A stretch of DNA of 64,000 nucleotides. Origin: Archivesica marissinica. Lineage: Eukaryota > Mollusca > Bivalvia > Venerida > Vesicomyidae. The translations under genes were made by a program, and so were the position numbers. The stretch spans positions 54,030,121-54,094,120 of the forward strand of contig CM026390.1 in the NCBI GenBank assembly GCA_014843695.1. The letters run 5' to 3'. This document shows positions 560-54,515 of the stretch, one piece after another. Every line of letters starts with the position of its first letter. Position 1 is the first letter of the stretch. The notes under the pieces are model-generated. The model did no database searches, was not told the DNA's origin, and saw only the letters and a program-made list of their open reading frames with translations.

Positions 560-645
560 TCTGAAACAAGTGCTTGGTGTGCAAGGGAGAGGTGGTCCAA
601 CCAACTGTCCTCTATACTGTCTACGTGAAGACACCTCTTCCAGAG
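560..645 (-). CDS. Possible next USO1 exon after the 40-bp array
   Basis: After the last TATCTTACAG of the array, one frame reads LWKRCLHVDSIEDSWLDHLS and then LAHQALVSET. It resembles the family segment KR-G-ENFIEKLG-ISKHELYSRA only weakly, and about eight residues expected before it are missing. No convincing donor is seen, so the low-coordinate end is nominal. The array unit repeats this acceptor and the first ~19 bases after it (CTGAGGGAGAGGTGCCTTC against CTCTGGAAGAGGTGTCTTC), which suggests a real exon edge. Confidence 0.3.
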
Positions 646-1436
646 CTGTAAGATAGGGAGAAATGAGAAGGCACCTCTCCCTCAGCTGTAAGATAGGGAG
701 AAAAGAAATGAGAAGGCACCTCTCCCTCAACTGTAAGATAGGGAGAAATGAGAAGGCACATCTCCCTCAGCTGTAAGATAGGGCACCTCTCCCTCAGCTG
801 TAAGATAGGGAGAAATGAGAAGGCACCTCTCCCTCAACTGTAAGATAGGGAGAAATGAGAAAGCACATCTCCCTCAGCTGTAAGATAGGGAGAAATGAGA
901 AGGCACCCCTCCCTCAGCTGTAAGATAGGGAGAAATGAGAAGGCACCTCTCCCTCAGCTGTAAGATAGGGAGAAATGAGAAGGCACCTCTCCCTCAGCTG
1001 TAAGATAGGGAGAAATGAGAAGGCACCTCTCCCTCAACTTTAAGATAGGGAGAAATGAGAAGGTACCTCTCCCTCAACTGTAAGATAGGGAGAAATGAGA
1101 AGGCACATCTCCTTCAGCTGTAAGATAGGGAGAAATGAGAAGACACATCTCATCTCCCTCAGCTGTAAGATAGGGAGAAATGAGAAGGCACCTCTCCCTC
1201 AGCTGTAAGATAGGGAGAAATGAGAAGGCACCTCTCCCTCAGCTGTAAGATAGGGAGAAATGAGAAGGCACCTCTCCCTCAACTTTAAGATAGGGAGAAA
1301 TGAGAAGGTACCTCTCCCTCAACTGTAAGATAGGGAGAAATGAGAAGGCACATCTCCTTCAGCTGTAAGATAGGGAGAAATGAGAAGACACATCTCATCT
1401 CCCTCAGCTGTAAGATAGGGAGAAATGAGAAGGCAC
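640..1436 (-). repeat. 40-bp minisatellite repeating a splice acceptor
   Basis: About 20 copies of a 40-bp unit. On the minus strand each unit is a pyrimidine-rich stretch ending CCCTATCTTACAG, then CTGAGGGAGAGGTGCCTT. It fills almost the whole interval between USO1 exon 14 and the candidate exon at 645. A block of about 240 bp is internally duplicated: 1030-1180 resembles 1270-1420, including the longer unit with catctcatctccctc. Confidence 0.93.
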
Positions 1437-1550
1437 GTACGTGGTGAATGTCTCGTTCTGATCATCGTTACACAGTAAACATATAGCCAGCAGGAAGGCA
1501 CATAAACCCTGTACATTCTGCTCATTCTCGTCACCATCAGACGAGGCCAC
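1437..1550 (-). CDS. USO1: USO1 exon 14
   Basis: Acceptor GATATCACAG. Encodes VASSDGDENEQNVQGLCAFL, then LAICLLCNDDQNETFTTY, matching the family's EEE-LVQGLCALLLG and FNDN segment. The 3' boundary is ambiguous: GTGCCT after TAC (1437) gives 38 codons and phase 0, and GTACGT after CAC (1441) gives phase 2. Either donor abuts the 40-bp array directly. Confidence 0.82.
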
Positions 1551-4500
1551 CTGTGATATCATCTACAGTTAGTTAAGTAACAAATACACCCAACAACAGG
1601 TTAGTGCTTGTCAACATTACTTAAAATAATTACACTTAAAACAAAGCACTCGTAGACTAAACATCTACTGAATTCAGAATTTTAATTGACTAATTCTTCA
1701 TTAAACTGGTGGCTTTTTCATAAGGGTTTTTTAAAATTGCATTGCAAATTCTCACCAATGCTACCCAGGTTCGATCCTCGGACCGGGAAGTATGTGAGAT
1801 GGTACGATGGTCGCCAGATCAGACAGTTGGCTTTCTCTGGGTACTCCCGTTTCCTCCCACATGAATGACCACATATACGCTTTCATCCGAGCCAACGTAA
1901 GTGATTAATATAAGTTGCTAAAACTTGCTTCGCAATCATTGTAAAATAAATAGTTTAAAATAAAATTGCATTAAAATATCATTCTTTCACTGCCTGACTA
2001 GGAGCTTTATGTTAAGATCTTGTAATGGAGGCCAAGACAGAGGACATTTAGGACTCCATAGATGGGGGAGATGGGAGCTTCTAGTAATGGAGGCCAAGAT
2101 GGAGGACATCTAGTACCATAGACACAGGGAGATGGAGGCCAAGACAGAACACATATAGTACTCCATAGACAGGGGAGATTGGAGCTAATGGTAATGGAGG
2201 CCAAGACAGAATGCAGCTAGGACTCCATAGACAGGGTAGATGGGAGCACTTGGTAATGGAGGCCAAGACAGAGTGCATATAGTACAACAGAGACAGGGGA
2301 GATTGGAGCTAATGGTAATGGAGGCCAAGACAGAGTGCATCTAGGACTCCATAGACAGGGGAGATTGGAGCACTTGGTAATGGAGGCCAAGACAGAGTGC
2401 ATATAGTACAACAGAGACAGGGGAGATGGGAGCTAATGGTAATGGAGGCCAAGACAGAGTGCATATAGTACAACAGAGACAGGGGAGATGGGAGCTAATG
2501 GTAATGGAGGCCAAGACAGAGTGCATATAATACAACAGAGACAGGGGAGATGGGAGCACTTGGTAATGGAGGCCAAGACAGAGTGCATATAGTACAACAG
2601 AGACAGGGGAGATTGGAGCTAATGGTAATGGAGGCCAAGACAGAGGGCATCTAGGACTCCATAGACAGGGTAGATGGGTGCACTTGGTAATGGAGGCCAA
2701 GACAGAGTGCATCTAGGACTCCATAGACAGGGTAGATAGGAGCACTTGGTAATGGAGGCCAAGACAGAGGACATATAGTACAACAGAGACATGGGAGATG
2801 GGAGCTCCTGGTAATGGAGACCAAGGCAAAATACATCTAGGACTCCAAAGACAGATGAGATGGGAGCACTTAGTAATGGAGACCACAGCAAAATACATCT
2901 AGGACTCCAAAGACAGAGGAGATGGGAGCACTTGGTAATGGAGGCCACAGCAAAATACATCTAGGACTCCAAAGACAGAGGAGATGGGAGCACTTGGTAA
3001 TGGAGGACACAGCAAAATACATCTAGGACTCCAAAGACAGAGGAGATGGGAGCACTTGGTAATGGAGACAACAGCAAAACACATCTAGGACTCCAAAGAC
3101 AGGGGAGATGGGAGCTCCTGGTAATGGAGGACAAGGCAAAATACATGTAGGACTCCAAAGACAGAGGAGATGGGAGCACTTAGTAATGGAGGCCACAGCA
3201 AAATACATGTAGGACTCCAAAGACAGAGGAGATGGGAGCACTTGGTAATGGAGGACAAGGCAAAATACAGCTAGGACACCAAAGACAGAGGAGATGGGAG
3301 CACTTGGTAATGGAGGACAAGGCAAAATACATGTAGGACTCCAAAGACAGAGGAGATGGGAGCACTTGGTAATGGAGGCCAATACAGGGAACATCTGGAC
3401 TCAAGAGAGAGAGCCTAGATGGAGCATTTCACAAAAACCCAACCTGCATATGACAGTGTGTAAAGGATACATATGGTACATTGGACGTGTTGAACAGGAA
3501 GTGCGATACAGCTGTTGTACAGTCTGCCATCCATGTTGCCAGCAACATCAATATACCCAGTCTTGTCTGTACACGCCCACCCTGTAATGTACATACTGTT
3601 TTCATTTGTTATCTCCAGATGTAAGATTACCATTTATATTGACATTATATCTAAAACTAAGATATTGCAAATTAAATGATTTTATTATCTTCGCTATCCT
3701 TTTATGTTTGCTGAACCCGTAGTTCAACATTAAATCTTCCTAGCACGTGTCTATTAAAGAGTAGAAACATATGATGATTACAAATTCCGATTGATTTTTT
3801 CTTACTGATTTGCACTTACAACATGATGGTGCATAATGTTGGAGATTGTTAAAAAAGGATGCACCACAATGCATTTAGAAATCGAATGTACCCAATAAAT
3901 GGGGTTTACCTGGGCTAATATATAACAGCACTGTAGCAGTGAATGATGATGAGCTTGAATGTGTCCAATAAATGGGGTTTACCTGGGCTAATATATAACA
4001 GCACTGTAGCAGTGAATGGTGATGAGTTTGAATGTGTCCAATAAATGGGGTTTACCTGGGCTAATATATAACAGCACTGTAGCAGTGAATGGTGATGAGC
4101 TTGAATGTGTCCAATAAATGGGGTTTACTTGGGCTAATATATAACAGCACTGTAGCAGTGAATGGTGGTGAGCTTGAATGTGTCCAATAAATGGGGTTTA
4201 CCTGGGCTAATATATAACAGCACTGTAGCAGTGAATGGTGATGAGCTTGAATGTGTCCAATAAATGGGGTTTACTTGGGCTAATATATAACAATACTGTA
4301 GCAGTGAATGGTGATGAGCTTGAATGTGTCCAATAAATGGGGTTTACCTGGGCTAATATATAACAGCACTGTAGCAGTGAATGGTGATGAGCTTGAATGT
4401 GTCCAATAAATGGGGTTTACCTGAGCTAATATATTACAGCATTGCTGTAAGAGTGAGACAGGAGGGTTGCCGAGACTGGTGGCTAGCTGTACACGCAATA

Positions 4501-7500
4501 ACTGTTCCTTCTGGGTGGCGTTTTCCGAGATTGCATTTAACATGGCTACTGCAGCAAACCAGTTTGACAAGGAATCGGCACTGAACAGACCACCACACAA
4601 CAACTGGCCAGCTGATATTGTGTTCACTAAAATAAAAAGAAGAAATAACTAGATAGTCGGTTTTAAAACACCACCACCCAAACGCACGGTTACCTGCGCA
4701 AAATTTCAGCTGCACATCATACTGACACGGGGAACAATCATTAAAATTTATTTCAAGTGGTTGATGCTATAGAACAGACATCACATATTCATATAATGTC
4801 ATATATGGTGTGATCTACAATATCCTACAAATAGTTTAACAGACAAGAAGCAGATACATAATATGGTGCATGTGACCATTGTCCTGTGTCGCCATGATTT
4901 TTGCTCAAATTTCTGCATTAATAGAATTACCTTACAAATTAAGTAGTTGAATAGTCGTTATAGCGATGTTCATGAAAGCTGTAGCCGTTAAGATTGTGCC
5001 CTTAGGCAATGCACTTGAATTCCACATTGCATCTTCTCTTTCACACTCAAGGCAACGGATTCCATCAGGAATTAGGTTTCGAGAGTGATCTAACTAAAGA
5101 ACATGTTTCGCAATTGGGCTAAATACATGTGTATAAACTAAACAATTGAACATCCAGTACAAGTATACAAGTCCTGTCTTATTAAAACGGAAAGGTGTAT
5201 AAGTAGGGTAGCTCAATATAAATGTATTACACTCACCATCTGCTGAGGTAGGTAACAATGTTTGGAAAGGTGTAGCAGTAGGGTAGCTCAATATAAATGT
5301 ATTACACTCACCATCTGCTGAGGTAGGTAACAATGTTTGGAAAGGTGGAGCAGTAGGGTAGCTCAATATAAATGTATTACACTCACCATCTGCTGAGGTA
5401 GGTAACAATGTTTGGAAAGGTGTAGCAGTAGGGTAGCTCAATATAAATGTATTACACTCACCATCTGCTGAGGTAGGTAACAATGTTTGGAAAGGTGGAG
5501 CAGTAGGGTTGCTCAATATAAATGCATTACACTCACCATCTGCTGAGGTAGGTAACAATGTCTGCACAATCTGTGACTGACCCACTTCATTTTTATAAAG
5601 GAATGACTGAAAACAATAGAGCACTGCACATCGCAGGGTGAACGGCTGTTTCTCATTTACCATCGACATGAGGAGCACAACGATAGCCGGTCTGAAACAT
5701 AAACAGCAAGTGTAACAGGAGCACAATGATAGCCAGTCTGAAACATAAACAGCAAGTGTAATAGGAGCACAATGATAGCCGGTCTGAAACATAAACAGCA
5801 AGTGTAACAGGAGCACAATGATAGCCGGTCTGAAACATAAACAGCAAGTGTAACAGGAGCACAACGATAGCCCGTCTGAAACATAAACAGCAAGTGTAAC
5901 AGGAGCACAACGATAGCCCGTCTGAAACATAAACAGCAAGTGTAACAGGAGCACAATGATAGCCGGTCTGAAACATAAACAGCAAGTGTAATAGGAGCAC
6001 AACGATAGCCGGTCTGAAACATAAACAGCAAGTGTAACAGGAGCACAATGATAGCCGGTCTGAAACATAAACAGCAAGTGTAACAGGAGCACAACGATAG
6101 CCGGTCTGAAACATAAACAGCAAGTGTAACAGCAGGAGCACAACGATAGCCCGTCTGAAACATAAACAGCAAGTGTAACAGGAGCACAACGATAGCCCGT
6201 CTGAAACATAAACAGCAAGTGTAACAGGAGCACAATGATAGCCGGTCTGAAACATAAACAGCAAGTGTAACAGGAGCACAATGATAGCCGGTCTGAAACA
6301 TAAACAGCAAGTGTAATAGGAGCACAACGATAGCCGGTCTGAAACATAAACAGCAAGTGTAATAGGAGCACAACGATAGCCGGTCTGAAACATAAACAGC
6401 AAGTGTAATAGGAGCACAACGATAGCCGGTCTGAAACATAAACAGCAAGTGTAATAGGAGCACAATGATAGCCGGTCTGAAACATAAACAGCAAGTGTAA
6501 TAGGAGCACAACGATAGCCGGTCTGAAACATAAACAGCAAGTGTAACAGGAGCACAACGATAGCCCGTCTGAAACATAAACAGCAAGTGTAACAGCAGGA
6601 GCACAACGATAGCCCGTCTGAAACATAAACAGCAAGTGTAATAGGAGCACAATGATAGCCGGTCTGAAACATAAACAGCAAGTGTAACAGCAGGAGCACA
6701 ACGATAGCCCGTCTGAAACATAAACAGCAAGTGTAACAGGAGCACAACGATAGCCCGTCTGAAACATAAACAGCAAGTGTAACAGGAGCACAACGATAGC
6801 CGGTCTGAAACATAAACAGCAAGTGTAATAGGAGCACAACGATAGCCGGTCTGAAACATAAACAGCAAGTGTAACAGGAGCACAACGATAGCCGGTCTGA
6901 AACATAAACAGCAAGTGTAACAGTTCTAGCACAAGAACACATTACAATATCTACTAGTATACATCAATACATTATACAATACACTGATGATACTCAGTCC
7001 AAGATGAAATATTTCAAACAAAATATGTCACTTCATATATTATACATCATGTGATTCATACAGGCTACATCCGTTATGTCAAAGTCAGTTATGTCGAATT
7101 CTCCGGTTATCTCAAAGTCGGATCAAAGTCCCGTTTCAGACACTATATATTTTACATATGACTGGCCCCGAGGTTATAAAACTTTTCTCAGATCTCAAAC
7201 TCAAGCTCAAGTGATCTGATTGGTTGATTCTGAGTGTTACTGTCGGGTGAACCAATCAGACGGTTGAGACTGAGTTTTGAGATTGGAGGAAAGTTTTATA
7301 ACCTCCAGGCCTGGCTCCATTTATATAGAATTTCGCTAAGTCATGTCAAAGTATTTTGTTTGGTCCGACGGAATTCGACATAGCGGCTGTAGACTGTATA
7401 AGACATTTGCATTTTTAAATCTTTGCAGAGAATGCCAGTGTGACCCGCTTAACCATTTACACAAGATGTGGAATTATATAGTGAATGAAAACATTTAAGT

Positions 7501-10500
7501 CAACAACTAACCTGAAGTTTGTAAATTAGTTAGCATTGCAGGGGATAAAGATGCATGTCAAAAGTTGTTCCTTGCAAAATCTTGGAAAAACCAAAGTATT
7601 AAACACTGGAGATATAGACATTTCACTTGCTTTGATAACATACAAATGTAGCCAGTCATCTAGGCTAGATGATGTCATTGTTGTGTTTTACGTACAGGCC
7701 ATAGTTACCGTACACAGGCCATAGTTACCGTGTGAAGCATAGCCATAGTTACCGTGTGAAGCATATTCAAGAGTATAAAGAGTATGCTAAATGCTTAATT
7801 AATACTTATGTTATATGTGATATTCTTATTATTATATGCGGAATGCTAAATGGATACAAATATTTTCTGAAAGTAGTTCCAATAAAAAAACATGTGAGAA
7901 ATAAAATGTGTTCTTCTACTGCTTTCAACCAGTGGATTAACTCATTTTATTTCACTGGTAAATTTCTATATTTCACTGGAAAGCATAAACTTAATGCCAC
8001 AATTAACATTTCATGTGATATTTAACCGATTGTAACCATTTTTAATTAGTGCCAACTTTTGCTAATTCCTTCACCATCTTGTATATATAATATATATATA
8101 AATCTGGAGTGCATTTAAATATGCCCCTCAAACACCTTTGGGATATATTACTTCCTGTATATGTATATAAATAATCACTTCATTCAGTATGGTAGCATAT
8201 ATATGACCATACAGAATTAGACTAACTCTACCCAACATTAATAAGTAGTATACTAAACCACACATCCAACATAAACATATAAATATTACATGTGTTGTTT
8301 ATATTTTCTTCAACAATCTTGACCTTGTTGTGATAAACTATAGAATTTCAGTGCAGTGTAGACTTCTCCCATGTGCACAATCATCCATTTATATTTCATG
8401 TGTATATTGCTGTACCAATTTAACTTGATCTAATATTCTATGCCCATTTTGATTTGGGTTTAAAGTTGCACAGAGGGCTTGGGTCATATGAAAACTTCCT
8501 GTTATTTTGGCCTTTTTTATGGGGGAAATACCCCCAAAAAGGCAGTAGTTTTAGGCATATGGTTATAAAATTATAACAACCATACGTGTGTGTCAAATTT
8601 TCACACTTTCGGATGTAACAATAATTTCATAATCCGAGAAAGAACATTCCGTGAAATTGCCTAATTAGGTGTGTGTCAATAATATGAGCAAATTACACAG
8701 TATCAATGTAACATGGTTGACCCTAACATAATCCAATTGTTCAAGTGTGGTCATTTGTTTGAAGTGCCGACATAAACTGTGGATATAATTTTGTTTTTAC
8801 CACAGGGGAATGTAACAGTGCTTTGATAGTACGTATGGGGCTGGAACAAGTAAAAACAAAAATCATAAACAAGGCAATGTATATTGGATGTCGCCAGTCG
8901 AGAATATAATATTATTTTTTGGAAACAAACACATTATCCCCTATATAAGCAACTGGATATTGTAAACTAACGACGGATATGTAGTCCAGTGGTAATACGC
9001 TAGACTGGTAATCCAGGGATCGCAGGTTCGATCCCCCGTCTGACCGTAATAAAATTAACAGTCTTTCAGATGGGACGTTAAACCGAGGTCTTGTGTCGGT
9101 GCTTTACACCGTGCACGTAAAAGAACCAGGAGACTCTGGAATGGGTCTCTCTCTGTATCATTGCACTATTCTCCAAAAACCTAAAATGACTAATCTCTTC
9201 AGGAGGCGTCGCTCATATGGGCAACCGGTAGCGACGATAAATAAACGTAAAACACACACAAAAACTAACGACATGACGCCACACGAAACATGCAATTTCT
9301 CCCAAACTAAACAGGTCGAAAGCGTACAGGCAAGTATGTTGGCGACAAATTGGTGGAATTCCTGGCATTTTGAAGTTGAATTCTTAGCAATTTCGCTGTT
9401 TTCATTGGACAAGAGTACTGGATAAGAATTATACTATATAAAATACGATATCCAATATTGGTTCTGTACCTTGTTTATGCTTTAAAAATATTTTTACTTG
9501 TTTCAACCTCAATTATACTATCAAAGCAAATGTTACATCCCCCTGTGGTTTTTAGGATTTACATAGATCAGATGCATGGTGTCATAGGTCAAAGTGTATG
9601 CATAATAAATGCCAAATTGTGGAAGATAAGCCGACATTACATATGGTGAGTTGTTTATGATGATGCATGCGTCTCGTCTGTGTACGGTGTAGCTGGTTCA
9701 AATAAATGGGATCTCTCAACTTCATCAATTAGTGGTGAAATGGCTTCGACATAGAATATAATTGTCTTCACCCTAGTGTGAAATTTAACCAAGAATAATC
9801 ATGATGATTGGGCGCTTAGCAGACAAATAATAATAAAAAAACAAAGGTACATGTACGTGTAATTTTAGGAAAATTATTTATAAGTTGCTATTATAAAGGT
9901 AAATTATTGGTAGTCACCGTGATTCCCAGAGCACATATATTATGGCAATCGATAATGAACTGCCGTGTTGGCAACACGATGCAGCATGATGTTAGTGTTG
10001 ACTGGGAGTTGATGTCACTGTGCTGGGTGCATTGTCATATACACGGTAGTAAATCCAAAAACAAATAGATAAGTAGTATAACATGGTCCCAGATGCCAGG
10101 ATCACATCATTCCAAGATCACCCAAGGCGACGGTGCATTATATATCATGGTCCAAGATGTCGAGGTCATATTAATCCAAGATCACCCAGCGCAACCCAAT
10201 ACAACCAATCCAATTTACTGTGGAATGCTCATTTGACAAACATGAAAATTTATCAAAGACACTGAAGTCGAGTAGCAGGTTGCTGCGATTGATCGACATA
10301 TTTCAGTGTATCAATTACTCACAGTGGATGATTTATTGCATCAGATTGCGTAGGATGAAGAAAGACAGAAGGAAGTGAATATACTGATGTCGGGTATAAC
10401 AGAAAGAATTAATATGAAAATGAGATTCCCAGTACGAGATCCAACCGAATAAAATATACCAGTACATACACTTGACTCGGATAGCTTAAAAATATCAGCA

Positions 10501-22500: not shown

Positions 22501-25500
22501 ACTCTAGCAACACTTGTCACAAGCAGAGGTAACACTTGCCACAAGCAGAGGTAACTCTAGCAAAACTTGCCACAAGCAGAGGTAACTCTAGCAACACTTG
22601 TCACAAGCAGAGGTAACTCTAGCAACACTTGTCACAAGCAGAGGTAACTCTAGCAACACTTGCCACAAACAGAGGTAACTCTAGCAACACTTGCCACAAG
22701 CTGAGGTAACTCTAGCAACACTTGTCACAAGCACAGGTAACTCTAGCAAAGCCAGATCTTACTTATCTGATAATTATTCATACATGTATGCACTGATGGC
22801 AAACAAATAAATCAACTGCCTGCTTTTAGTTCAATAGATAACAGTGACTGTGTGGTGTTTGGCAGAACTGATTGCGAGTAGTCTTGAAAACTTAGAAATG
22901 CACATAACAAATTTCTTTAAATCTTTTATTAACATCAAATATAGTACTTTCCATTTCATTCCTAACTTTTTAAGTTCAAACATTTCAAATCATATTTAGA
23001 TTGGATTGTTCAATCGGCATGGATTTTTGCTAATGCAAAATGAAGATTTATTTATCAGGAGAAAAAAAGAAATCCAGTACACAACTTACCTGTAAGACTA
23101 GATGTATATTGGTAACCTTCTGTGCTGACCAGCCAACCTGTGACCTCTGTTGATCTTGTTCAAGTTCAAAGAATGGGGTTAAAAATTTCACATGGCTTCC
23201 TTCTCGGAAGAAGTTCTGATTTGATGAATTGTTCTTCAGCAAATTTAACAACAAAAGAATGCAGTCTTCAACAACAATTCCTGCAAGGAAAATACATAGG
23301 AGAATATTAGGTTACTGTCTTATAAATTTTAATTTATTAGGCAAGTTGGAGAAAATATACAAGACATGACCTAATATTCTATTTATCCTATCTTAGCACA
23401 GTGCCCAAGGTTATAACACTTTTCTCAGATCTCAAATGATTTGATTGGTTGATTCTGAGTTTTAATGCCAGCTGAACCAATCAAAAGCTTGAGACTGAGT
23501 TTGAGATAGGAGACATGTTTTATAACCTCGAGAGCATATCTAGACAAGAAGGAAGGTGTATCTACTCAGAGAGAATCTATTTCTTAACACACTGGCTTAT
23601 GGTGATTTTAATTCTTTACTCTTCAGGATATAAATATGCCATTAAATTAAACAGTACAGACGGATCTGTAGTCCAGTGGTAATTTCGATTCAATCCCCCA
23701 TCTGACCATAATAAAATTAACAGTCTTTCAGATAGGGACATTAAACCGAGGTCTCGTGTCGGTGCTTTACACTGTGCATGTAAAAGAACCAGAGGAGACT
23801 CAGGAATGGGTCTCTTGTCTGAATCATTGCACTATGCTCCAAAATTACTAATCTCTTCAGGAGGCGTCGCTCATATGGGCAACCGGTAGCAACAATAAAT
23901 AAACGTAAAACACACACACAGTACAAGATAAACATAATAGAAATATGGTTCTGGTAGTGCAATCTAGAATTGCTATCATACATATGCATACGTTTCTAGA
24001 CATTAATAACTGATCAAACGATTATGTAAATCAGAAGTTCATATCTACATGTCATTTCTATAAAGTATCAAATTTGCTTTGTTTCAGCAATTTAAATATT
24101 TAATATCAATTTACCTCCATCTATCCCACCTTCTTCACGTATGATGTCAAGAAGTCTTTCGAATGCATTTTCGAATGCCACAATTTTCTGTATGTTAGCA
24201 TTGTTCCTTGTAAGCTGGTTTAATAACAACAATGCCTGAAATGGAAACAGACTAATTACATCCATGAACTTCATACTTCCTTTACCGTACATGCTGTGGC
24301 AACACACCAAAGTCTGTATCATTAAACAAAAATATGTTTTAACTTTAATACAAGATTTGTATCCTTTGATAAAGTATTGTTCTTCGTTTCTTCTGGGATT
24401 TAGTTGTTATCCCTGCATTGAAGATCATGCATAGAGCTTTCCAGATTTACATGGTGAAGGAAGACCTTGGGTACATGAATGAACTGAGTGTTGGAGAAGC
24501 ACCTGAAGCACCACCAACCTTCCACAAGTCATATGCAGTGTTGGTCAAGTCTTACGATATATGTTTAGTGCATGAAATTTACAGATATTCCACTACAAGT
24601 TTGAAACTGTGCACACACAATCATGGCCATAATCATTTAGTGACTAATACATGTAACTAGAAAACGTAAACTAATAAAACAAGTACTATAACTCTTACTA
24701 ATTAAACTTATATATGTATGGACCTTTCTGACGTGGAATGATTCAATGTCCTTTAGTCTTGTGTGCAGAGCCCACCACATCTGAGAAACCATTTAGCAAA
24801 GGGCTTTGATTCTTACACACATATGTAACTTAATATCTTTGTAGATCAATTTGCTCAAAGATTGGAAAATTCATACATGTATTGTTATTAATTTTTGTGG
24901 CTGAAAACACTTCATCCCAAAAATTCTTCCAATAAGTTTATTTCAGGTACTGTGCAGACAGATTAATGAGATGGGACTATGTTCATAGGGAAAAGGCTCA
25001 ATAACGTATGTTATATTTCGGGTTTTACGCCTGCATCAGCACCATTTTGGGCTATATCGCCGGCGGGCAGTTTACCTAACAACACCTTTCCTGGGCAGGC
25101 TCCAACGGTTAACCAGTACTTGGGTGCACCAACCTCCGTAAGAAACTGCCAACTTTTTCATATAAATGAGACACGGTCTGAGCGGGGCTCGAACCCGTGA
25201 CCATCAGTAATGATAGGTTACAGTGGTATACAAGTCAGCGACCGTAACCACTCGATCACGGAGGCGGACTGGCTCAATAACAAACTTGTTAAAATAGTCA
25301 AATAAATAAGGACATACACAAATGTAGTTCAAACATCAGCACTGTGTGCTTCATTGCTGCTGGTAACATGCACATTGATATGTGGCCTTGAAAGAATATC
25401 CATAAAATTTGGATGTACTAATGAAATCGTACTAACATACAATACTGCATACTTACATCATTTCTGATGATTTCTCTACTGTCCGAGAGAAGGTCCATCA

Positions 25501-28500: not shown

Positions 28501-31500
28501 CGTCTCCAACACATGTATGACAGCCTCCATGGCCTGTGTTCCAACCTCGAGTCGGAACTTCTGCAAATAGAAATGTAGGTTTCAAATCTGTAAAACAAGA
28601 AACACAAATATGTTAGCCGTTACTTGAGTGGTGATGACAGTCTTACTACAGAGTCTTGGGAGAAGCAGATGAAGAAATCAGTTTATTTTAGCAATATCAA
28701 ATTCAATTGACCAGTATGACCACCTTTGGGTATTGACCAAACTCAAACCCTATTGGGCTGAGCAATCACATAATATTAGTCTTAATACAGCCCAAAGTTA
28801 GCACATTAGAGCACAATGCAGTATAATGATGGAATAAAATCAATGTTGAATTTAGTAATTAACCACCAATCAACCGGTGTTGCCCACTTTGGGAGTATTG
28901 ACCAGGGTGGAAGGAAGTATTGACCAGGGTGGTTTTAACTAGTTAAAACTGCGGATTTAAACCGAAGGTGGTTTCGACTGGCAATAGTTGCATGCCTTGA
29001 ATCATAAACCTCACAAAATGACTATTTATCCAACTGGTAAATAGATGTACATACACGTGACAGTGCCTTGATAGCCCGGACAGCATCGCGTCTGTCTTCC
29101 AGGAGAGTGGATGATGATGCCCTATCAACTAGCCTTTCAACCTGAAAGAATTTCATTTCTTTATTGTTTTACCTATAATAATCTAATAGTAATACAGTAC
29201 AGACATAATGGCTCACACATTTTCCGCGCATCACTAAGAAATGCGGATGTCCGCCTATCTCCGCGTCAGAATCACGCGGAAGCAGAACCGGATCATGATC
29301 ACCTACACAATCCATGGCCATGACCTATCCATAGCTGTAGCAGGAAACTACACATCAAATGCTGGAAGCGAGTGTTAAGCGAATGATTAGAAGGCGAAAT
29401 AGGGCCTTTAAAAATACTAGGAAGTCAAGTACGCCTTCAAATCTCAAGAAATTCCTGGATCTAAAACATTTAGTGCGGAAAAAGGTCAAAGAGGCGTATC
29501 ACCAATATCTGGAAAACATCCTAAATCTAAACAGTGCTGATGCCTCCCATCCTTACAGACCAAACACCAAGAAACTTTATTCCATCCTTAAGCACTCCAA
29601 GCAAGACTCCAAACCAATGCCACCCCTAAAGCATGAAAACAAATTTCATCATGAAGAAGCTGCTAAAGCCACAGCACTGAACAAACAGTTTCAGTCTGTG
29701 TTCAGCTCCAAATCCCCACTAAGACTTACCTCCATTTGTAAAATGAAAATTCAGGACACAAATGGAAACCTGAATGGTCAATCCACGCCAAACATGAATG
29801 AGATCACAGTAAGTTCAAATGGCATAGAGAAACTACTCAATAATCTGAATCCCCATAAGGCTAGTGGTCCTGACCAAATTAAGCCAATCATACTTAAAAC
29901 CCTGTCTAAAGTCTAAAAAACTCTCACCTATCCTTGAAGTCTTATTCCAAAAATCCCTCAACAAAGGATCACTGCTGGCCCAGTGGAAGTCAGCAAATGT
30001 TGCTCCCATTTACAAAAAAGGGGACAAGTCAAACCCCACCAACGATAGGCCTATCTCACTGACATGTGTTCTATGCAAGGTACTAGAACATATAGCTTCC
30101 TCCTCGATAGTAAAACACTTCACTAACCACAGTATTCTGTACCATTTGCAGCATGGTTTTAGAGTAAAACGGTCATGCGTGACCCAACTAGTAATGCTAG
30201 TCAATGACTTGGTTACCTCTGTCTACAATAAGCATCAAGTAGATCTCATCCTATTAGACTTCAGTAAGGCTTTCGATAAGGTCAATCACGAGAAAGTACT
30301 ACTAAAAATGCATGACTATGGAGTCAGAGGTCAAACATTAAGGTGGATTAAGAGTTTTCTAGATAATAGACTCCAGTCAGTTGTCCTTAATGGTATTAGT
30401 TCAGAGGCCATTCTGGTGTCTACTTGGACCCCTGCTTTTCCTAGCCTACATAAACGACCTCACACAAAACATCAATTCCAAAGTCGATATCTTTGCAGAT
30501 GATACTGCAGTCTATCTATCATTGATATCTGCAAATGAATCGGTCACACTCCAAAACGATCTTAAGAGATTAGAAGAGTGGGAGTTGGAGTGGGACATGG
30601 AATTTAACCCCTCCAAATGTCAAGTTATCCACGTCACCAGAAGGAAACATCCTATTCCCAGTCAATTTAAACTCAATGGAGTCCTACTTGAGTCGGTCAC
30701 CTCAGCCAAATACCTTGGCGTGGATATCTCAAATAACCTGTTGTGGGACACTCACATAAAAAGGTCAACAAAGAAAGCAAACCAAACATTAGGATTTCTA
30801 CGTAGAAACCTCCAGGTCAAATCTGAATTCCTTAAGTCCATGGCTTACCAGACACTAGTGAGACCCCAGCTTGAATATGGCTCCGAGATCTGGTTGCCCC
30901 ATACCCAAACATTGATAGACCAAATTGAAGGTGTCCAGCGAAGAGCAGCCCGTTGGATAATGGCTGACTTCTATCGTACCTCTAGTGTTACAGACATGCT
31001 ACATTCCCTAAATCTACACAGACTAGATCAACGGCATATTGACAAAAGGTTATCCCGTATGCATAAAATTCATAATGATCTTGTTGCTATTCCCATTGAA
31101 AATTACTTAGTTCCTCTCTCCTGTCCTGCTCGCCATTCCTTAATATAGGTTAATTACAGCAACTACAGAATACTATAAGTTTTCCTTTTTTCCAAGAACA
31201 ATCTACCATTGGAACCATCTCCCTCCTGATATTGTCCATCTCCCTACTATAGAACAATTCAATAAGGCAGTTTGCCATATTGATCATGCCAGTCCCTAGT
31301 TGTTTTGCGCAGCTTTTAAACTTTTACCACAACTTACTTTCACTACTTTCTTAAATTATGCTTTTAACTACTCATACTTTTAACTTCTTTGCGGTTTTTG
31401 ACGCGCAACATGTCTACGTCCCCTCGAGGGGTTTGATATAAAAGAAAGATAGAGATAGCGAGTGTTTTATTTGTAGCGAGTGTTTTATTTGTTACTGTCT

Positions 31501-31870: not shown

Positions 31871-31877
31871 TTTGGAA

Positions 31878-31900
31878 GTGTTAACGCATGCGCAACGACG
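31878..31900. promoter_or_regulatory. NRF-1-like palindrome just upstream of the USO1 start codon
   Basis: ACGCATGCGCAA at about 31884-31895 lies some 14 bp upstream of the USO1 ATG and is close to the NRF-1 consensus YGCGCAYGCGCR. Such sites are common at TATA-less housekeeping promoters. Function is inferred only from the match and its position. Confidence 0.3.
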
Positions 31901-32040
31901 TGGCAAAATTCGCAGTACACAAGCGTTTATATTTCGCAATAGTATCAAAGTACAAGAAGAATCTGATCAAGAAGTTTTCTAAATGGGCAATAAAATATTA
32001 GCTCATTTGGATGGTTACAAAAATACACGAACTATACATA

Positions 32041-32150
32041 TGGGGCCTCTGAGGTCGTTGACTACAAATCACTTCCCCCTCACCGCTGATGGTTCGAACC
32101 CCACTACTATTATGGAGGAAGCTATTCAGCTGTCTTGCACAAGGTCGGTG
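32041..32150 (+). mobile_element. SINE family A fragment abutting a LINE
   Basis: Tail of the tRNA-like head with CACTTCCCCCTCACCGCTGA, the B box GGTTCGAACCCCACT and a short piece of body (GGAGGAAGCTATTCAGCTG). It runs directly into LINE reverse transcriptase sequence. Confidence 0.55.
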
Positions 32151-33420
32151 ATTCTACACTTGTCCCCAGATGATTGGAGACATGCAGTTATATCTCCCAT
32201 ATACAAAAAGGGTCAAAAGTCCAACCCTAGCAACCACCGCCCCATTTCTAAAACATGCATAGCATCCAAACTCTTAGAATAGGGCCTACATCCTGGTTTC
32301 AACATCATGTCATTCTTTGACTCGCACCATATTCTTAGCCCACAGCAGCACAGGTTCAGGTCAAAACACAGATGTGACACCCAACGCATTGGTTTCACAC
32401 AGGAAATAGCTGATAATCTCGAACTCGGTCACCAGACGGATGTCATCATAATGGAGTTACGGTAAGCATTCGACAAAGTAGATCACCACAAGCTCATCCA
32501 TAAACTCAAACACTTTGGTATAAATGATAAAGCCACATCATGGATACACTCATTTCTCAAAAACGGGTCACAACAGGTTATCGCCGACGGTAAATGCTAC
32601 GACAGGTTACAAGTTCTCTCAGGTGTCCCACAAGGGTCTGTCCTGGGGCCCTGTCTCTTTTTATCTTATATAAATAACCTACCAAACAGCATCAAAGTCG
32701 GGCCCACCTCTTTGTCGACGACACCATCCTCTACCTCATCATTAAATCCCAGTCCTCAACAGAAGCTCTACATGATATATACACCTCTTAGAATCTTGGG
32801 GAAAGGAATGACCAATGGAATTAAACACCGATAAATGCGAACTATTAAGAATCCATAGGAAAAGAAACCCAACTATTTGCCCATACAAGTTATATAACAC
32901 ACAATTAAGGCCAACTGAACTCTACAAATATCTCGGAGTCACCATTAGTAAGAACATTAACGTGGCCCAATACATCAATAATAATTATTACCTCAAAAGC
33001 TAACATTATCAAAGTAAGTATACAAGTCAAAACAAATAATAAACAGATCAAAGAAAACGCATATATCACTTATACCCACCCACAGGTTGAATACTGCTCC
33101 ACAGTCTGGAAACCCTGGCAGAAACACCTTACCTACAAAATAGAAATGGTCCAAAGATCTTCAGCCCGATATATATTCAATGATTACAACTACACTAGTA
33201 GTGTATCACAAATTGTATCCACCCTCAATTGGAAAACTTTAGAACATAGACGAAATCAAGCCTCACTAATCATGTTGTTTTCAAAATAAGAAATGAACTA
33301 GTTGCTGTAGATCACCATCACCTTACACCCACAATAAACCTTAACTATCTAATCCAACAGTCAAAAACCCAATATCATGCAAACTCATTTCCCCAAGAAT
33401 AACTAGGCTAGAAGAACAGT
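32150..33420 (+). pseudogene. Second non-LTR reverse transcriptase fragment, decayed
   Basis: Related to the 29340 element: ISPIYKKGQKSNPSNHRPIS near 32190, a broken motif A (AFDKVDHHKLIHKL), SGVPQGSVLGPCLFLSYINN near 32620, and the catalytic FVDDT readable near 32710 only after a frameshift. Stops and frameshifts occur throughout. The C-terminal part (YLGVTISKN, VEYCSTVWKPW) is present. No endonuclease. Confidence 0.85.
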
Positions 33421-34100
33421 CGACCGACATATATACAATCGAGTTCCATCTGCCGACTTTTGTTAACAGACTGGACTCGTACTTCCTCTCATCGTTGTAC
33501 TGTCTGCTTTTAACTATAGCTTTGTAGATCTTTTCAACTTGCACATAACAGTTTATATTCACTTACTCTTCTAGACTGCGCGTGTCAATCATAATCCTGA
33601 CGGCAGTAAGAAGTTGAAGTCCTCACCCGTGCCCGAAATATTCTTCGGATGGGCACTTGTTGGTCTTCTCCACCAATAACTGGATTGAAATATAAGATCA
33701 TGGAAACACGCCGGTTGACCGGCCAGTGGTCCTTCGTGCACTGTTCCTTCACTTATAATGACTACGTATAAACTAAAATCACAAACAAACAGCATGGAGA
33801 ACACATGTTGATATTTACTCAAGCACCCTAGTGCAATATTCAGGAAAAAAGGACTTGATGATCTCCCAACAAAAACACCCAATTAGATAGAGAGATTTAT
33901 AACAGTTGTAGTTAGGAATTTATTGCATCTTAAGATCATTTAAAACACCCTAATTAGGAGATAAAATGTATAAAAGAAATAATGAAAAGTTCTAATTACG
34001 ACAAACCTCGTCTCATGCCATTGTACCTGTACTGCACACCATCAAGTGGAGCCCCTGTGATGTTATGGATATGATGTCCATCTCAAAATGATAATTGCGA
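33421..34100. other. Intergenic, no feature seen
   Basis: Short open frames on the minus strand (33341-33882) show no domain. Composition is ordinary. Probably decayed repeat or spacer. Confidence 0.35.
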
Positions 34101-35430
34101 TGCGACTTTAAAGCAGTTCGATCATTCTGATAATCATGCAACTACTTTTCAAGTGTTAGATAGGCACATCTCGATTGAGGAAATTACTACGGCAACTAAG
34201 CGATTAAACAATAATAAAGCATCTTCATGTGATAACATAATATACGAGTACTTTCAGGAAAGTATACACATCATTGCAAAACCGCTGGAATTGCTTTTCA
34301 ATTGTATTTTAGACCCTTAGACCTTTCCGCGTAGCTGGTCACAGGGTGTCATTATACCGTTATATAAGAAGGGCGATAGTACAGACCAAATAACCACAGG
34401 GGAATTACACTGCTATGCTGCTTCGCAGAGTTGTGTACGGCTATTTTAAATGAACGTATGAAAATTTAGATCAAAGAATACGATATATTAACGGATGCAC
34501 AATTTGGTTTTAAACATAGTGTTAATACAGTTGACGCTATAATTATGTATGCACTAATTCCTTAATTGAAAATGCTTTACATAATACAACGTCATACATA
34601 TGTGTAAACTAATTCGAGCTGGAGTTGATGGAAAGCTGTTCTCCCTTATCCGCTCAATGTATGACGAAATAAACTGTCCATCAAGCATATGGACAGTTTA
34701 TTCGACTTCTTCACTAGTAATGTGGGTTTATTGCAAGGGGAGATCACCGATCATGTTTAGTATGTTCTTGAATGACATTGGGTTTTCTTTACAAAATGGT
34801 TTGAATGCTGGAATATCGATCGAACAAAAATAGCTATTTATATTTTACTGTTCGCGGATGACGCTGCGATGTTTTCAGATACAAGTGAAGGTCTACAATC
34901 TTGTAGAATATTGCGCTAAATGGAATCTAACAGTAAATACTGATAAACCAAAAGTGTTGTTTTTAGTAAGGGTGAAGTTTTAAGCAAAACATATAATTGG
35001 ACATATGAAGGTAAACATATATAGATAGTTAGCAGTTTTAATTACCTTGGGGTAGTTCTTGTTTAATGACAGATATATTCGATGCGTCTCAATTTTAAAC
35101 TACAGTTGCAAAATGTGGGGCTTCATGAAAGCTGATCATATTGAAAAAGTACACAGAAAATTTTGCAAACATCTTATTAATGTAAAAATATCGACAAACT
35201 CGGTGTCTCTATATTCAATAATTGGGCGTTTTCCTTTATTCATTGGAAGATATTTAAGAATAATGAAATATTGGTTATAATTGTATGGGATCAAATAAAG
35301 AAACTGTATTATAAGCGCAATTGCATACTCACAAAGACATGATATATAAATAGTAAACCCAATACAACGAATTGGTCATCCAAAATTCGTGACATACTGC
35401 ATACATCCGGTTTTTCTGATGTTTGGTTAT
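34100..35430 (+). pseudogene. Third non-LTR retrotransposon, heavily decayed, part 1
   Basis: Frames with many stops read EEITTATKRLNNNKASSCDN near 34180, a finger motif (IIPLYKKGDST) near 34352, ELIRAGVDGKLFSLIRSMYD-like sequence near 34605, MFSMFLNDIG near 34755, a catalytic FADD equivalent (TTCGCGGATGACGCTGCGAT) near 34851, and CVSILNYSCKMWGF near 35085. It is a different lineage from the elements at 29340 and 32150. It is interrupted at 35445 by a SINE. Confidence 0.75.
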
Positions 35431-35444
35431 TTCATGAATCTGTG

Positions 35445-35693
35445 TGTGTGTTTTACGTTTATTTATCGTCGCTACCGGTTGCCCATATGAGCGATGCCTC
35501 CTGAAGAGATTAGTCATTTTAAATTTTTGGAGGATAGTGCAATGTTACAGACAGAGACCCATTCCAGAGTCTCCTCTGGTTCTTTTAAGTGCACGGTGTT
35601 CAGCACCGACACGAGACCTCGGTTTAAAGTCCCATCTGAAAGACTGTCAATTTTATTAGGGTCAGACGGGGGATCGAACCTGTGATCCCTGGA
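35445..35693 (-). mobile_element. SINE family B inserted in the LINE, 5'-truncated
   Basis: Minus-strand copy from ATCCAGGGATCACAGGTTCG to the GGTAGCGACGATAAATAAAC tail. It is flanked by a perfect 14-bp duplication TTCATGAATCTGTG (35431-35444 and 35694-35707). Most of the tRNA-like head is missing. Confidence 0.9.
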
Positions 35694-35707
35694 TTCATGA
35701 ATCTGTG

Positions 35708-36250
35708 AACATAAAACGTTTTTATATCAGTGCTGAAATGTCGACTGAGAGATCAGTACGTGTCACAATGGCAAATTAATATAGACGCGTCTTCTCGATT
35801 AGCTCTCAATTAACTATACATGTATACAAAGAACTATCTTTACAGCAAACGACCTAGCTACTTACATTTATTGTCTAACGTAAGTCACAGAAGCTGTATA
35901 GCTAAACTAAGGATTTCCACCCATGAACTTTTAATAGCGACTGGAAGACACAGAAACATTGAATGAAGCCAACGTAAATTTCAATTGTGTCCACTGAACG
36001 ACATAGAAGACGAGTATTATTTTGTATTCATGTGTCCATTCTACGAAACGCTCAGAAACATTTATATACCAACGTATTTTTCACAACGTCCTCATTTGTT
36101 TAAATTTATTGCTTTATTGAATTCCGATAAAAAAACATCTTATTGAACAAACTTGCACTATTTTGTATAAATGGTTTTAAGATTAGAGACAACATATTTA
36201 AACAGACTCCAATAACACCCTGGTATACAAGCATAGGATTCAGGAAGTAC
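35708..36250 (+). pseudogene. Third non-LTR retrotransposon, part 2 (C terminus)
   Basis: Downstream of the SINE the LINE continues. Near 35990-36120 it reads CPLNDIEDEYYFVFMCPFYE and then RPHLFKFIALLNS, the usual C-terminal zinc-knuckle-like region of such ORF2 proteins. It is disrupted by stops. Confidence 0.65.
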
Positions 36251-38270
36251 TGATGTTCATAAAAAAGAGGTGGCTCATAAGTCAGAACTACATGGCCCTT
36301 TAAATAGGGAAGACACTACAATAAACAAACACTTTACAGGCATTATTTGTTCTCTATAAAGTTGTGTGTGTATATTTTCTAATTAGGATTTCTTTTATCT
36401 GTTCAATCTACAAGTCTTATCTTGGAGTTTTTATCTTAATGATGACCGTTTACCTATTCTGTTATTATGACCCAGAGCTGTCAAGGGTGCATCGAGTGTC
36501 GGAGTGAGATATGGGGTTCGAAGGGGCGGCTGCCCCTCAGGGGGTCTGGGGGAAGCTGGATACACTCTATGGCTCATTTTCGTCATATTTGGTGTCAAAT
36601 GGCTTACATGAAATGCTACTTTGGCATCTAATGAAGGACACTTTTCACCAAGAAAACCTGATCAAGCACACATTTTATGGTAAAGAAAGCTTGCAAATAA
36701 CTTTTTGTAAGTTTTTTATTAAATTGACTTACACGTCAGGCGCAAACCTGTCTTGGTTGTCAATTTATAATAAAACTCCGATGTAATTTGCAAGCATTTG
36801 TCACCAGCTTGAGCAAAATCAGCGTGGTCTAGTGGTTACCACATCAGGCTGATTACAATTTCGGCACAAATTCAAACCCGGGTATGACTTGCCAATTTTT
36901 CATTGAGCAAGACCATTTACCATTACCATATTGCTAAGAACAAACCGTACAGTAAACGTTATTTGCCGAGCTTTGAGAAGCAATTACTGGATAATTAAGT
37001 GTCTACTTAGAATGAATCAAATGTAGATTTGTCAGGCGCGTCGGAAGGTAATTGTCATTGGGGTCGCGAGCCGCATGGTATGGCGGGGGGGAGTTTGGGG
37101 GTCCTCCTCCAAGAAAATTTGGAAAACCAGAACGCCTCCGACGCGATTTCCCGGTACACAGGTCGCTATTTCGCATGCCGCAAGTTGCACAAGTAACCGG
37201 TTCAAATGATGTTTTGCAGTAACATTTCATGATTTGGAGAACATTTATATTTGAAGGCTAATTAGATCTCCTGTTGAAAAAACAAAACTAGGCTTTGGGT
37301 GGGTTGCTTCCATAGTCCCATGCTTAGTGTGTGTGTGAGTGTATAGGGCGGACGGCGAAATACATTTGTGTGGCACAAATCAAGTGTAAGGATTAATCTC
37401 CGCACAACCTCGAGCCATCTTGTCAACATATTGGGACCGCCTGTGCAAAATAATGGGGCCATGTCGCCCACATATTGGGGCCGCGTTGCCCAAATATTAG
37501 TTTCTTCGTCTTTTTTTTGACAGGACTCTGTGATTCTGAAGCCATGGTTAACAAAAAGAGCGTCTACACCGTTAACAAAATTAATGTAAACATTACATTC
37601 GGCCTTCGTTAGTTTTCGGGAGCCAATCATAAGTGATTATTAACGCACGGAGAGTTCCGACATCGGTTCCGAGTAGTTACGATTGTACAGTGCGACGATC
37701 AGTTTCAAATATAGCCTTGAGACATTCTAAAAATAGCAATTTGGGAAACTTAATGTGTTGCGATTTTAAAATAGCACGGATATTAGTGTAGGTAAATCGT
37801 TTTTTAGAAAAAGCGTGACAATATTAAAGATACGCGTGAGAGTGTGATTTGAGGTCTAAAAGCGTGAGTCTCACGCCGAAAGCGTGAGACTTGACAGGTA
37901 TGATAATATATATTGACCGTTTATCTATTCTCACCCAATGTGGCATGCTTTACAGTGTTTTTACCTGGTCTCTCTAAATTACAACATTTCATCTGCATAT
38001 TAGTTCATTTCATCTACTTTTTGACTTGTTATCGTCAAAGTAGGCTCTTTGTATATAGGTTCCCTCTATATAAGAACGGTTCATCATGTAATCTGTTCTC
38101 TCAAATTTATATCCTAGTCATGCCATGAAGTTATGCCCTAATGGGTGCTTACTTTCTACCATGTGTTATTCCATAATTAGGACATGTACATATTAACTCA
38201 TTATTAGAAACACATTAGGGTATTTATTGATTTATATCCTAGCTTCCAGGTCCTGGACATACTTATAGAC
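36251..38270. other. Repeat-derived spacer, no gene
   Basis: A tRNA-like SINE head is at about 36822-36895 (GCGTGGTCTAGTGGTTACCA, then a B-box-like TTCAAACCC). The ORFs at 36511-36786 and 37003-37630 have no recognisable domains. 37905-38230 resembles the 36410-36480 sequence (gaccgtttacctattct), suggesting a shared repeat family. Confidence 0.4.
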
Positions 38271-38545
38271 GGATATGTAGTCCAGTGGTTAGCACGTACG
38301 TTGCACTGGTAATTCAGGGACCACAGATTTGATCCCCAACTGACCCTAATAAAATTAACAGTCTTTACATTGGACTTTAAACCGAGGTCTTGTGTCGATT
38401 TGCACCGTGCAAGGAATACAACCAGAGGGGACTCTGGAATGGGTCTCTGTCTGTATCATTGCATTATCCTCCAAAAATCTAAAATGACTAATCTCTTCAG
38501 GAGGCGTCGCTCATATGGGCAACCGGTAGCGACGATAAATAAACA
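38271..38545 (+). mobile_element. SINE family B copy
   Basis: GGATATGTAGTCCAGTGGTT head, GACTTTAAACCGAGGTCTTG body and GGTAGCGACGATAAATAAAC tail, with point changes relative to 8975-9261. Confidence 0.85.
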
Positions 38546-39790
38546 TATTTAACACAATTGCATGGACATACCTGTCTGCTAATGTGGACTTTCAACAAGT
38601 ATCTCCTTATTACAATAAAAATTGTCATAATTCGCATGAAGTGAAATGTGACGTGATTCAGATGGGGAGGGATTCAAGTTTAAATGACAGATTAGCCAAA
38701 TTACTTTAATACAAAGATTCAAATCATAAAACAAACTTCCTTAAAAGTTATTGTATCTGATTTTGAAATCAAAACTACCACTGCACCAGAGACACGAGAC
38801 AGTGACCTATATGTTCAACGATGCACGGTATGACTGTGTGATATGTTTATACACACATCAAATGCGAGACGAACTACTATATACATGAGGATTATTCATT
38901 TACCTTGGTAAGATTGTTGTTCTATTCAGAAGTGTACACAAAATGAACGGTTTTAACATGCATCTTTTAAAAACGATTGTCAGCAGTACTAACATAGACA
39001 TACAAGTATAATTTAAATGTGCGCAGGTAAATATTCTGTACAAGGGGTGCAGGTACATTTAGATATAGTCCTTGATAGTAAACTGGTAAAATGTTACATT
39101 TTTCAAGTCTAAATATTTGGACTAATTTAGATAGTATTCTTCATAATAAAGTGTACTATTGTTTCTGTCACCGACCCCGGTAAACCTTGCGACCCACACC
39201 ACATAAACACTTCCTGATTATAATGCATATTCTATATAATAACAACTAGCCTACAGGTTAATATCTGAATCAGCAAGTAAGTGTTTCATATTCTAGAAGA
39301 TAATTTTAATAAAATCAACAGTTGTTGCGTTTATATTGTGGTATACAATGGTCGGGTATACAATACATTTGTGCTGTTTAGAGTGTGTGGGGCTGTCAAT
39401 GTACACATGTTGTGCTAAACCTTTATTTGAGGTATCATGCCCGTAGCCAGGGGGTTGGGTGGGGGTGTGTACACAACTTTTTCGGACCCCAAAACCTGGT
39501 GCTTTCTGTTGGTGCTTTTTTTCGACAATGACGTATCTGTTGGACATCATAGTGTCCCCATATTACAAACACCGAGTCTCCAGAGTGCCAGACTGAGCCG
39601 GAAGTGTCCCTATATTAAATGTCTAGTCCTATATATATAAGATCTCTACATATTTTTTTTTTCAATCTGTTATTTCGAAAAGTTTTTCAAGTCTAATATT
39701 TGGACTACACTGCATGCAGTTCAATGTATCTTAACACTTTAATCCATTTTAATGCCACATAATTTAAGGATGGGGGCACCTGGTATGATG
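38546..39790. other. Intergenic, no gene seen
   Basis: AT-rich sequence without a supported feature. The stretch around 39437-39560 (gtagccagggggttgggtgg) resembles a dispersed repeat end but I cannot assign it. Confidence 0.35.
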
Positions 39791-39799
39791 TGTGCACAT

Positions 39800-41935: not shown

Positions 41936-41994
41936 GAATATCAATTGTCATTTTATGGTATGAAATAACTTGAGGCAAGTGACATGTTATAAAG

Positions 41995-42150
41995 GTGAGT
42001 GACACAACTATGAAATAATCAAAGTGGAGTGACACCACTATGAAATAACTGAAGGTGAGTGACACCACTATCAAATAACTGACGGTGAGTGACACCACTA
42101 TGAAATAACTGACGGTGAGTGACACCACTATAAAATAACTGAAGGTGAGT
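41995..42150 (+). repeat. 30-bp array carrying GTGAGT, possible 5'UTR donor array
   Basis: About six units of 30 bp (gtgagtgacaccactatgaa followed by ataactgaag). An AAG|GTGAGT or ACG|GTGAGT donor consensus occurs at 41995, 42055, 42085, 42115 and 42145. It ends 270 bp before the acceptor of the ELOVL start-codon exon, so these could be alternative donors of a non-coding first exon. That role is inference. Confidence 0.6.
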
Positions 42151-42444
42151 GATGCTAGCATTTAATTGTATGAACTTTCAAGGTTACAACAAGTTGTTGT
42201 AAGGGGTTACATAGAGTGTGTACGGTAATTGAATGCTTTACTTTGCATACGGTACCCCCATCGTCATACTAGCAATGAGTGTAGGACATAAGATTTATCT
42301 AATCAGGCTGTGGAAGTAATAAGGAGTCAAACTCTGGACCTGAAGACCAAGTGTCACGGATCTGGTCCCACCACCATGGACAAGTTAATGGAGATGTTCC
42401 ATTCTTTACTATTTAGGATTGCTGTTTCATACACTGGCTGAAGG

Positions 42445-42588
42445 ATGGGTCTGACACCGGAGAAGATTATTTTGGGGTTGAAGTTTGTAACCCAGCTTGA
42501 TACATTCCCCATCTTCATTGGCTACATGTTCATGATTGCACTATCTGGACAATGGAAGAAATATACAAAACCACTAAGTCTCAGACCC
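42445..42588 (+). CDS. ELOVL fatty acid elongase, coding exon 1
   Basis: 48 codons from MGLTPEKIILGLKF to KKYTKPLSLRP, then GTAAGT. ELOVL enzymes are multi-pass ER membrane condensing enzymes that extend fatty acyl-CoA with malonyl-CoA in the microsomal elongation cycle. The exon carries the family's DTFP-like segment, a membrane stretch (IFIGYMFMIALSG) and the basic K-P--LR motif that precedes the conserved VYN of exon 2. An acceptor-like CTTTACTATTTAG at 42404-42416 suggests that this exon begins at 42417 and that a non-coding exon lies upstream. The donor region is duplicated 31 bp downstream (42619/42620). Only the proximal donor keeps the frame into exon 2. Confidence 0.88.
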
Positions 42589-42631
42589 GTAAGTAGTGCT
42601 GCCACTAAGTCTCAGACCCGTAAGTAGCGCT
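42573..42631 (+). repeat. 31-bp tandem duplication of the ELOVL exon 1 donor
   Basis: Two adjacent copies of cactaagtctcagacccgta+agtag(t/c)gctg, each with the exon end plus GTAAGT. The genuine junction is 42588/42589 and the copy 42619/42620. Use of the distal site would add 31 nt and shift the frame. Confidence 0.95.
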
Positions 42632-42727
42632 GTATTTTATGTTTTAACATACTGCTAATGCTAGTCGGTATGGATATTTGAATATTACAAAAACCACCAG
42701 GCATGTTCTACAGTTTGTGTATTTAAG

Positions 42728-43680: not shown

Positions 43681-43827
43681 TTCACTTAAACGACCACTTG
43701 ATGAAATAAATCCTTATCTTACAATAACAAATAAACATTTTATTTTGCAGAACAAATACATTTACATTATATTTTATAATAAACCATGTTCTGTGTCACT
43801 ATGAGAAAAAGGCTACAATACCCAAGC

Positions 43828-54501: not shown

Positions 54502-54515
54502 TTGGTGTCCGTTTG

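Follow-up and report, generated by a model that had tools for sequence, protein, structure and literature searches.

In a 64,000-nucleotide stretch of the genome of the vesicomyid clam Archivesica marissinica (contig CM026390.1, positions 54,030,121 to 54,094,120; here called the window), four tandem arrays straddle splice junctions that are verified by homology. Three of them belong to the USO1/p115 gene, where they cover the donors of exons 11 and 12 and the acceptor of exon 11, and the fourth covers the donor of the first coding exon of an adjacent ELOVL5-like elongase gene (ELOVL). Three donors (5' boundaries) and one acceptor (3' boundary) are affected, and 38 spare copies of a junction lie on the intron side of the four authentic ones. 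The arrays are probably ordinary minisatellites, started by small tandem duplications that happened to fall across a junction, which grew later and would be tolerated by splicing.

Arrays were called with Tandem Repeats Finder (TRF), and exons were placed by tblastn with bivalve and gastropod p115 proteins. The p115 gene lies on the minus strand, with exons 1 to 14 between positions 1441 and 31870. From exon 1 to exon 14 it spans about 30.4 kb and holds 1,691 nucleotides (nt) of coding exon, which agrees with the gene size and exon content given in a preliminary description made from the sequence alone. All 14 donors carry GT and all 13 acceptors carry AG, and the resulting model of 565 residues is, over its whole length, 94% identical to p115 from Mercenaria mercenaria and 93% identical to that from Ruditapes philippinarum, values that point to a venerid-like bivalve. 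Exon 11 (5537..5691, minus strand), which has junction arrays on both sides, is 100% identical to Mercenaria over 52 residues, and exon 12 (4421..4626, minus strand) is 96% identical. The elongase is encoded on the plus strand. Its first coding exon (42445..42588) shows 67% identity to residues 1-49 of the Mercenaria protein, and its second coding exon (47078..47698), which runs up to the stop codon, was placed by tblastn and by its acceptor position and matches PF01151 with E=2.3e-39.

At the acceptor of exon 11, the array (5671..6923, minus strand; boundary 5691/5692) has a unit of 46 nt, with three units of 49 nt, consisting of 25 nt of intron ending in TGTTTATGTTTCAG and the first 21 nt of the exon. 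It holds 26 extra acceptors besides the authentic one, and the AG is kept in all 27. At the opposite end of the same exon, the donor array (5189..5561, minus strand; boundary 5536/5537) repeats 75 nt, made of the last 25 nt of exon 11 and 50 nt of intron, and adds four donors with the sequence GTGAGT; five of five sites, including the authentic one, keep the GT. The exon 12 donor array (3884..4441, minus strand; boundary 4420/4421) has a 73-nt unit with 21 nt from the exon end and 52 nt of intron, and supplies seven extra GTAAAC donors. Here GT is kept in eight of eight sites, again counting the authentic one, and CAA replaces CAG before the donor in two of the eight. In ELOVL the repetition is limited to two 31-nt copies (42571..42632, plus strand; boundary 42588/42589), each with 18 nt of exon and 13 nt of intron, giving one extra donor (GTAAGT) and an intact GT in both.

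A scan was also performed in which the 24-mer across each of 29 junctions (27 from p115 and two from ELOVL) was compared, ungapped, with all 24-mers within 400 nt. A near-identical copy, with 0-1 mismatch in 24 nt, was found at four of the 29, exactly the four array junctions; the copy is identical for the exon 11 acceptor and differs at one position for the exon 12 and ELOVL donors. At the remaining 25 junctions the best match has 9-12 mismatches. The same range was observed at 681 of 751 control intronic positions outside TRF arrays, and 10 of the 751 have five mismatches or fewer. The junction copies are therefore real, and no other close ungapped copy within 400 nt was missed. Together with the lists of units, which differ from one another in sequence across the four junctions, the scan bears out the preliminary description where it presented the arrays as unrelated and as containing both exon and intron bases.

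The direction of copying can be read from exon 12. The end of this exon encodes an asparagine (CCNILAQ), which is also found in Mercenaria (CCNIVAQ) and in the two gastropods compared, whereas the copies in the array would encode a tyrosine. The conserved residue in the exon identifies the exon as the source and the array as derived from it. The exonic copy at the edge of this array differs from the array copies, which are similar to each other; in the exon 11 acceptor array, the edge copy is of the common type.

This anatomy had been put forward as a possible new class of genome structure, a claim that does not survive comparison with the literature. The clam arrays fit the anatomical definition of the "mirages" of amphioxus, which the available parts of the sources describe in Adh3 and in the globin genes BflGb6 and BflGb9 (PMC3087553), and in TnC and PGBD5 (PMC3902484). 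In both animals the unit spans an exon-intron boundary, 5' and 3' boundaries are affected, and many additional AG or GT signals are created. The unit sizes are also similar, with 10-72 bp in amphioxus Adh3 (as cited there) and about 150 bp in the globins, and the edge copy of BflGb6 can escape homogenization, as may the exonic copy of clam exon 12 but not the edge copy of the exon 11 acceptor array. On the other hand, amphioxus mirages are documented by reverse transcription PCR and length-polymorphism data in the parts of those papers available, while the clam arrays are known from one assembled sequence. The clam differs further in belonging to another phylum, in having up to 26 extra copies and an exon (exon 11) bracketed on both sides, and in presenting four cases in two adjacent genes, one of them with an in-frame, stop-free unit.

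A minisatellite with multiple donors is reportedly present in the human gene IFI6. As in the clam donor arrays, a repeat array at an exon end gives serial donor sites. The IFI6 minisatellite is mentioned in a passage and a reference of PMC4526556, in the part of that source available. In IFI6 two downstream repeat units are reported to be used as donors, whereas the extra clam donors are read from the sequence. Variable minisatellites at exon-intron boundaries are likewise described in human genes from segmental duplications, where 27 intron modifications remained after manual inspection and transcript evidence points to novel introns and alternative splicing (PMC2812944, from the text available). 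These resemble the clam arrays in being minisatellite expansions at boundaries of coding genes, with units of about 30 bp on average. However, they were detected through differences between recent paralogs, while the clam arrays extend existing introns and are read from the sequence. Extension of existing introns is also what separates the clam arrays from the Rogers model, in which introns are gained when AG/GT proto-splice sites are duplicated (as presented in the available portion of PMC3087553), and which shares the tandem duplication of splice signals. Regarding mollusks, no boundary-spanning minisatellite appears among the titles and abstract openings listed, a list mostly without subscription papers and hence weak evidence of absence. 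The available parts of reports on an earthworm metallothionein (PMC12783039) and a clam hemoglobin (PMC4732748) touch on intronic repeats or splice sites and do not mention a boundary-spanning array.

The origin as ordinary minisatellites starts from the repeat content of the window. Of its 63,000 known bases, 41% lie in tandem arrays, and within the p115 gene the share is 43%; at such a density some duplications would be expected to fall across junctions. In the first step, a small tandem duplication would happen to straddle a splice junction. As judged by eye, the repeat joint and the left flank have 2 nt (CT) in common at the exon 11 acceptor, and TACAG in the case of exon 12; such short shared sequences imply that long homology is not required. 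The array would then be expanded and homogenized by slippage or unequal exchange. Contrary to a duplication inside an exon, a complete copy would stay joined to the exon, and the surplus would thus be removed with the intron. Even the use of a distal site need not be disruptive at exon 11, because its donor unit is in frame and free of stops, so that 25 residues would be added per copy and the protein would not be broken. For amphioxus mirages built in this way, normal splicing is reported to be unaffected, as far as the available text of PMC3087553 and PMC3902484 goes.

An assembly artefact, in which short duplications were falsely expanded in a draft scaffold, is highly improbable. The window sequence is indeed a scaffold, with a gap of 1,000 N bases at 52295-53294, and the BflGb6 mirage of amphioxus was misassembled in a draft genome (PMC3087553, in the part available). 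Nevertheless, the nearest of the four arrays lies more than 9 kb from the gap, copies within arrays share patterned variants between non-adjacent units, and four unrelated units at four junctions would require four artefacts.

Whether the junctions are hit more often than by chance depends on the null model: there is no enrichment by coverage, and there is a modest post hoc excess per array. Since it was the pattern itself that led to this locus, all enrichment P values are nominal. The preliminary description had considered repeated overlap with junctions unexpected by chance and had suggested shuffling of positions as the check; run at this locus with circular shifts, shuffling gives a depletion, as 3 of 27 p115 junctions fall inside arrays where 11.5 are expected (P for at most the observed number 0.013). 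Such depletion is unsurprising, given that arrays are not free to absorb exons. An excess appears when each array is counted as one event. In three of the 15 p115 arrays, a terminal unit straddles a junction and has its exon part facing outward, where 0.33 would be expected (P 0.0055), or 0.36 if the placement forbids exon loss (P 0.004). The excess is about 8-9-fold and comes from small numbers. With ELOVL included, the count is 4 of 19 gene-body arrays against 0.17-0.86 expected (P 1e-5 to 0.009, the range being set by the overlap cut-off and by collapsing arrays to one unit). When only arrays with at least about three copies and a period of at least 20 are considered, 3 of 12 straddle a junction, where 0.12-0.59 are expected (P 0.0001-0.018).

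This excess is an argument for the main rival explanation, according to which splice junctions are mutational hotspots for tandem duplication, through co-transcriptional R-loops, stalled forks or nucleosome edges. Four further p115 arrays have their start downstream of a donor, at distances of 4, 42, 68, and 91 nt, which would also fit a hotspot, as would the clustering of the exon parts of the units (21, 25, 21, and 18 nt), which are more alike than random with P 0.013, a test chosen after the lengths had been seen. The event-wise excess is, however, post hoc and comes from a single locus with four events, and by coverage the junctions are depleted in arrays. The lean of the larger interior arrays toward the donor side is at most weak, with relative offsets of 0.02, 0.06, 0.13, 0.39, and 0.81 for the five in p115 and about 0.52 for the one in ELOVL. 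A hotspot is therefore regarded as unlikely.

Several of these observations nonetheless count against an origin as tolerated, ordinary minisatellites. Plain tolerance predicts uniform seeding, yet three or four straddling arrays are observed where 0.12-0.86 are expected (nominal P 1e-5 to 0.018), and the exon parts are oddly similar in length at 18-25 nt. In addition, the idea supposes, from the sequence, that splicing would go on using the exon-attached site. By analogy with the human boundary repeats, which change splicing according to the available text of PMC2812944, neutrality should not be assumed.

A different role might be read from the reading frame of exon 11. A single open reading frame (ORF) of 615 residues (5094-6941, minus strand, in the frame of exon 11) spans the exon and both of its arrays. 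Read-through translation of the 75-nt donor unit stays in frame and meets no stop, so that every distal donor, if used, would insert 25 in-frame residues, GECNTFILSYPTATPFQTLLPTSAD or a closely similar sequence. The 46-nt acceptor unit is open in all three frames and keeps the frame only every third copy. These features are what would be expected if the copies were selected as splicing decoys or isoform switches, with exon 11 gaining optional in-frame repeats of 25 residues, and so are the preservation of GT or AG in every copy and the alternative splicing described for human boundary repeats (PMC2812944, in the text available). This alternative is very unlikely to be correct, however. At least one open frame is found in 49% of shuffles of the 75-nt unit and in 19% of those of the 46-nt unit, so open units are common by chance and the shuffles give no support to selection for open frames. 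The intact splice sites are explained by the high identity within arrays alone, and the donor units of exon 12 and ELOVL (73 and 31 nt) are frameshifting.

The p115 proteins of relatives also speak against decoys. Among the best-listed 238 records, which are not all the matches and were scored only where the flanking motifs were recognized, no array-sized insertion is present between exons 10 and 11 in the 145 scored (93 unscored), all with nine residues between the motifs. Nor is there one between exons 11 and 12 in the 165 scored (73 unscored), where the spacing is nine residues in 155 and 4-15 in the rest. In the tests made here, R-loops, RNA-templated repair, and decoy selection, all offered as causes in the preliminary description, receive no support. 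A broader proposal is that minisatellites of this clam lineage arise preferentially at splice junctions, convergently with amphioxus, and that p115 varies in length through serial exon 11 donors adding 25 residues in frame; it is improbable.

Splice-site scores built from the unaffected junctions were used to compare 22 array units with 1,000 shuffles each, on the strand of the gene or on the plus strand where no gene is known, and with P values left uncorrected. The exon 11 acceptor (P 0.003) and the ELOVL donor (0.039) score above their shuffles, and the donors of exon 12 (0.11) and exon 11 (0.27) are unremarkable; the score alone would thus not have found two of the four junction arrays. 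Among the 18 units away from verified junctions only two pass P<0.05, those of the arrays at 57040-57331 (both scores) and 41992-42152 (acceptor score). The scores thus do not support a general association of arrays with splice-like motifs, and nothing obvious draws splice sites into arrays generally. The array at 57040-57331 has a 57-nt unit (P 0.025 as donor and 0.015 as acceptor), and no gene was identified there.

The array at 41992-42152 (plus strand, 30-nt unit, TRF) lies upstream of the first coding exon of ELOVL and contains five GTGAGT motifs, three of them as AAG/GTGAGT, with a shuffle P of 0.061 for the donor score. The end of a 5' untranslated exon may be located there. Close to the other end of the window, an intronic array (627..1436, minus strand) with a 40-nt unit abuts the exon 14 donor. 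The initial 4 nt of intron 14 separate it from exon 14, of which it contains no bases, and it carries 18 TTACAG and two TTAAAG acceptor-like sites. A higher-order pattern of unit lengths (45-40-40-40-40-40) is seen twice in it. A tblastn search with six bivalve p115 proteins did not detect the next conserved exon, which reads SLRQIIEKRIGLEAF in relatives, at 1-640. A candidate exon 15 at about 645-574 was rejected: the frame from the acceptor-like site gives LWKRCLHVDSIEDSW instead of SLRQIIEKRIGLEAF, and translation in the phase imposed by the donor of exon 14 meets a stop. From the "at least four, probably five" affected exon edges counted initially, four are thus verified by homology, and the one near 640 is not sustained.

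Regarding the surroundings, p115 (1441-31870, minus strand) and ELOVL (42445-47698, plus strand) are arranged head to head. Their homologues bear consecutive locus numbers in Elysia chlorotica (EGW08_017801/017802), Tegillarca granosa (KUTeg_006547/006548), and Nucella lapillus (ACOMHN_039487/039488), suggesting that this neighborhood is conserved across mollusks. Intron 1 of p115 contains a reverse transcriptase remnant (29341-31145, plus strand; PF00078) that looks like a non-long terminal repeat (non-LTR) element, and similar fragments appear in the ORF list around 32300-33300 and 34100-35300. The N gap is adjoined by the remnant of an LTR-type element (53300-55706, minus strand), which carries an integrase zinc-binding domain (PF17921) and is accompanied by an upstream ORF containing a long repeat rich in Glu and Arg. 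A dispersed repeat (YGQPVATINKRKTHT / EEISHFRFLED...) is present in at least five places according to the ORF translations (9012-9433, 23616-23890, 35332-35726, 38204-38549, and 60011-60441). A plasmid search with positions 640-5000 gave zero matches, as expected for animal DNA.

The presence of four cases in two adjacent clam genes suggests that arrays across splice junctions are a general phenomenon of minisatellite-rich genomes, which can be counted genome-wide. They are a hazard for gene annotation, and the serial splice sites at a single exon offer material for studying how the spliceosome chooses among near-identical sites. Finally, junction arrays represent a possible route to intron change or to the in-frame extension of an exon.

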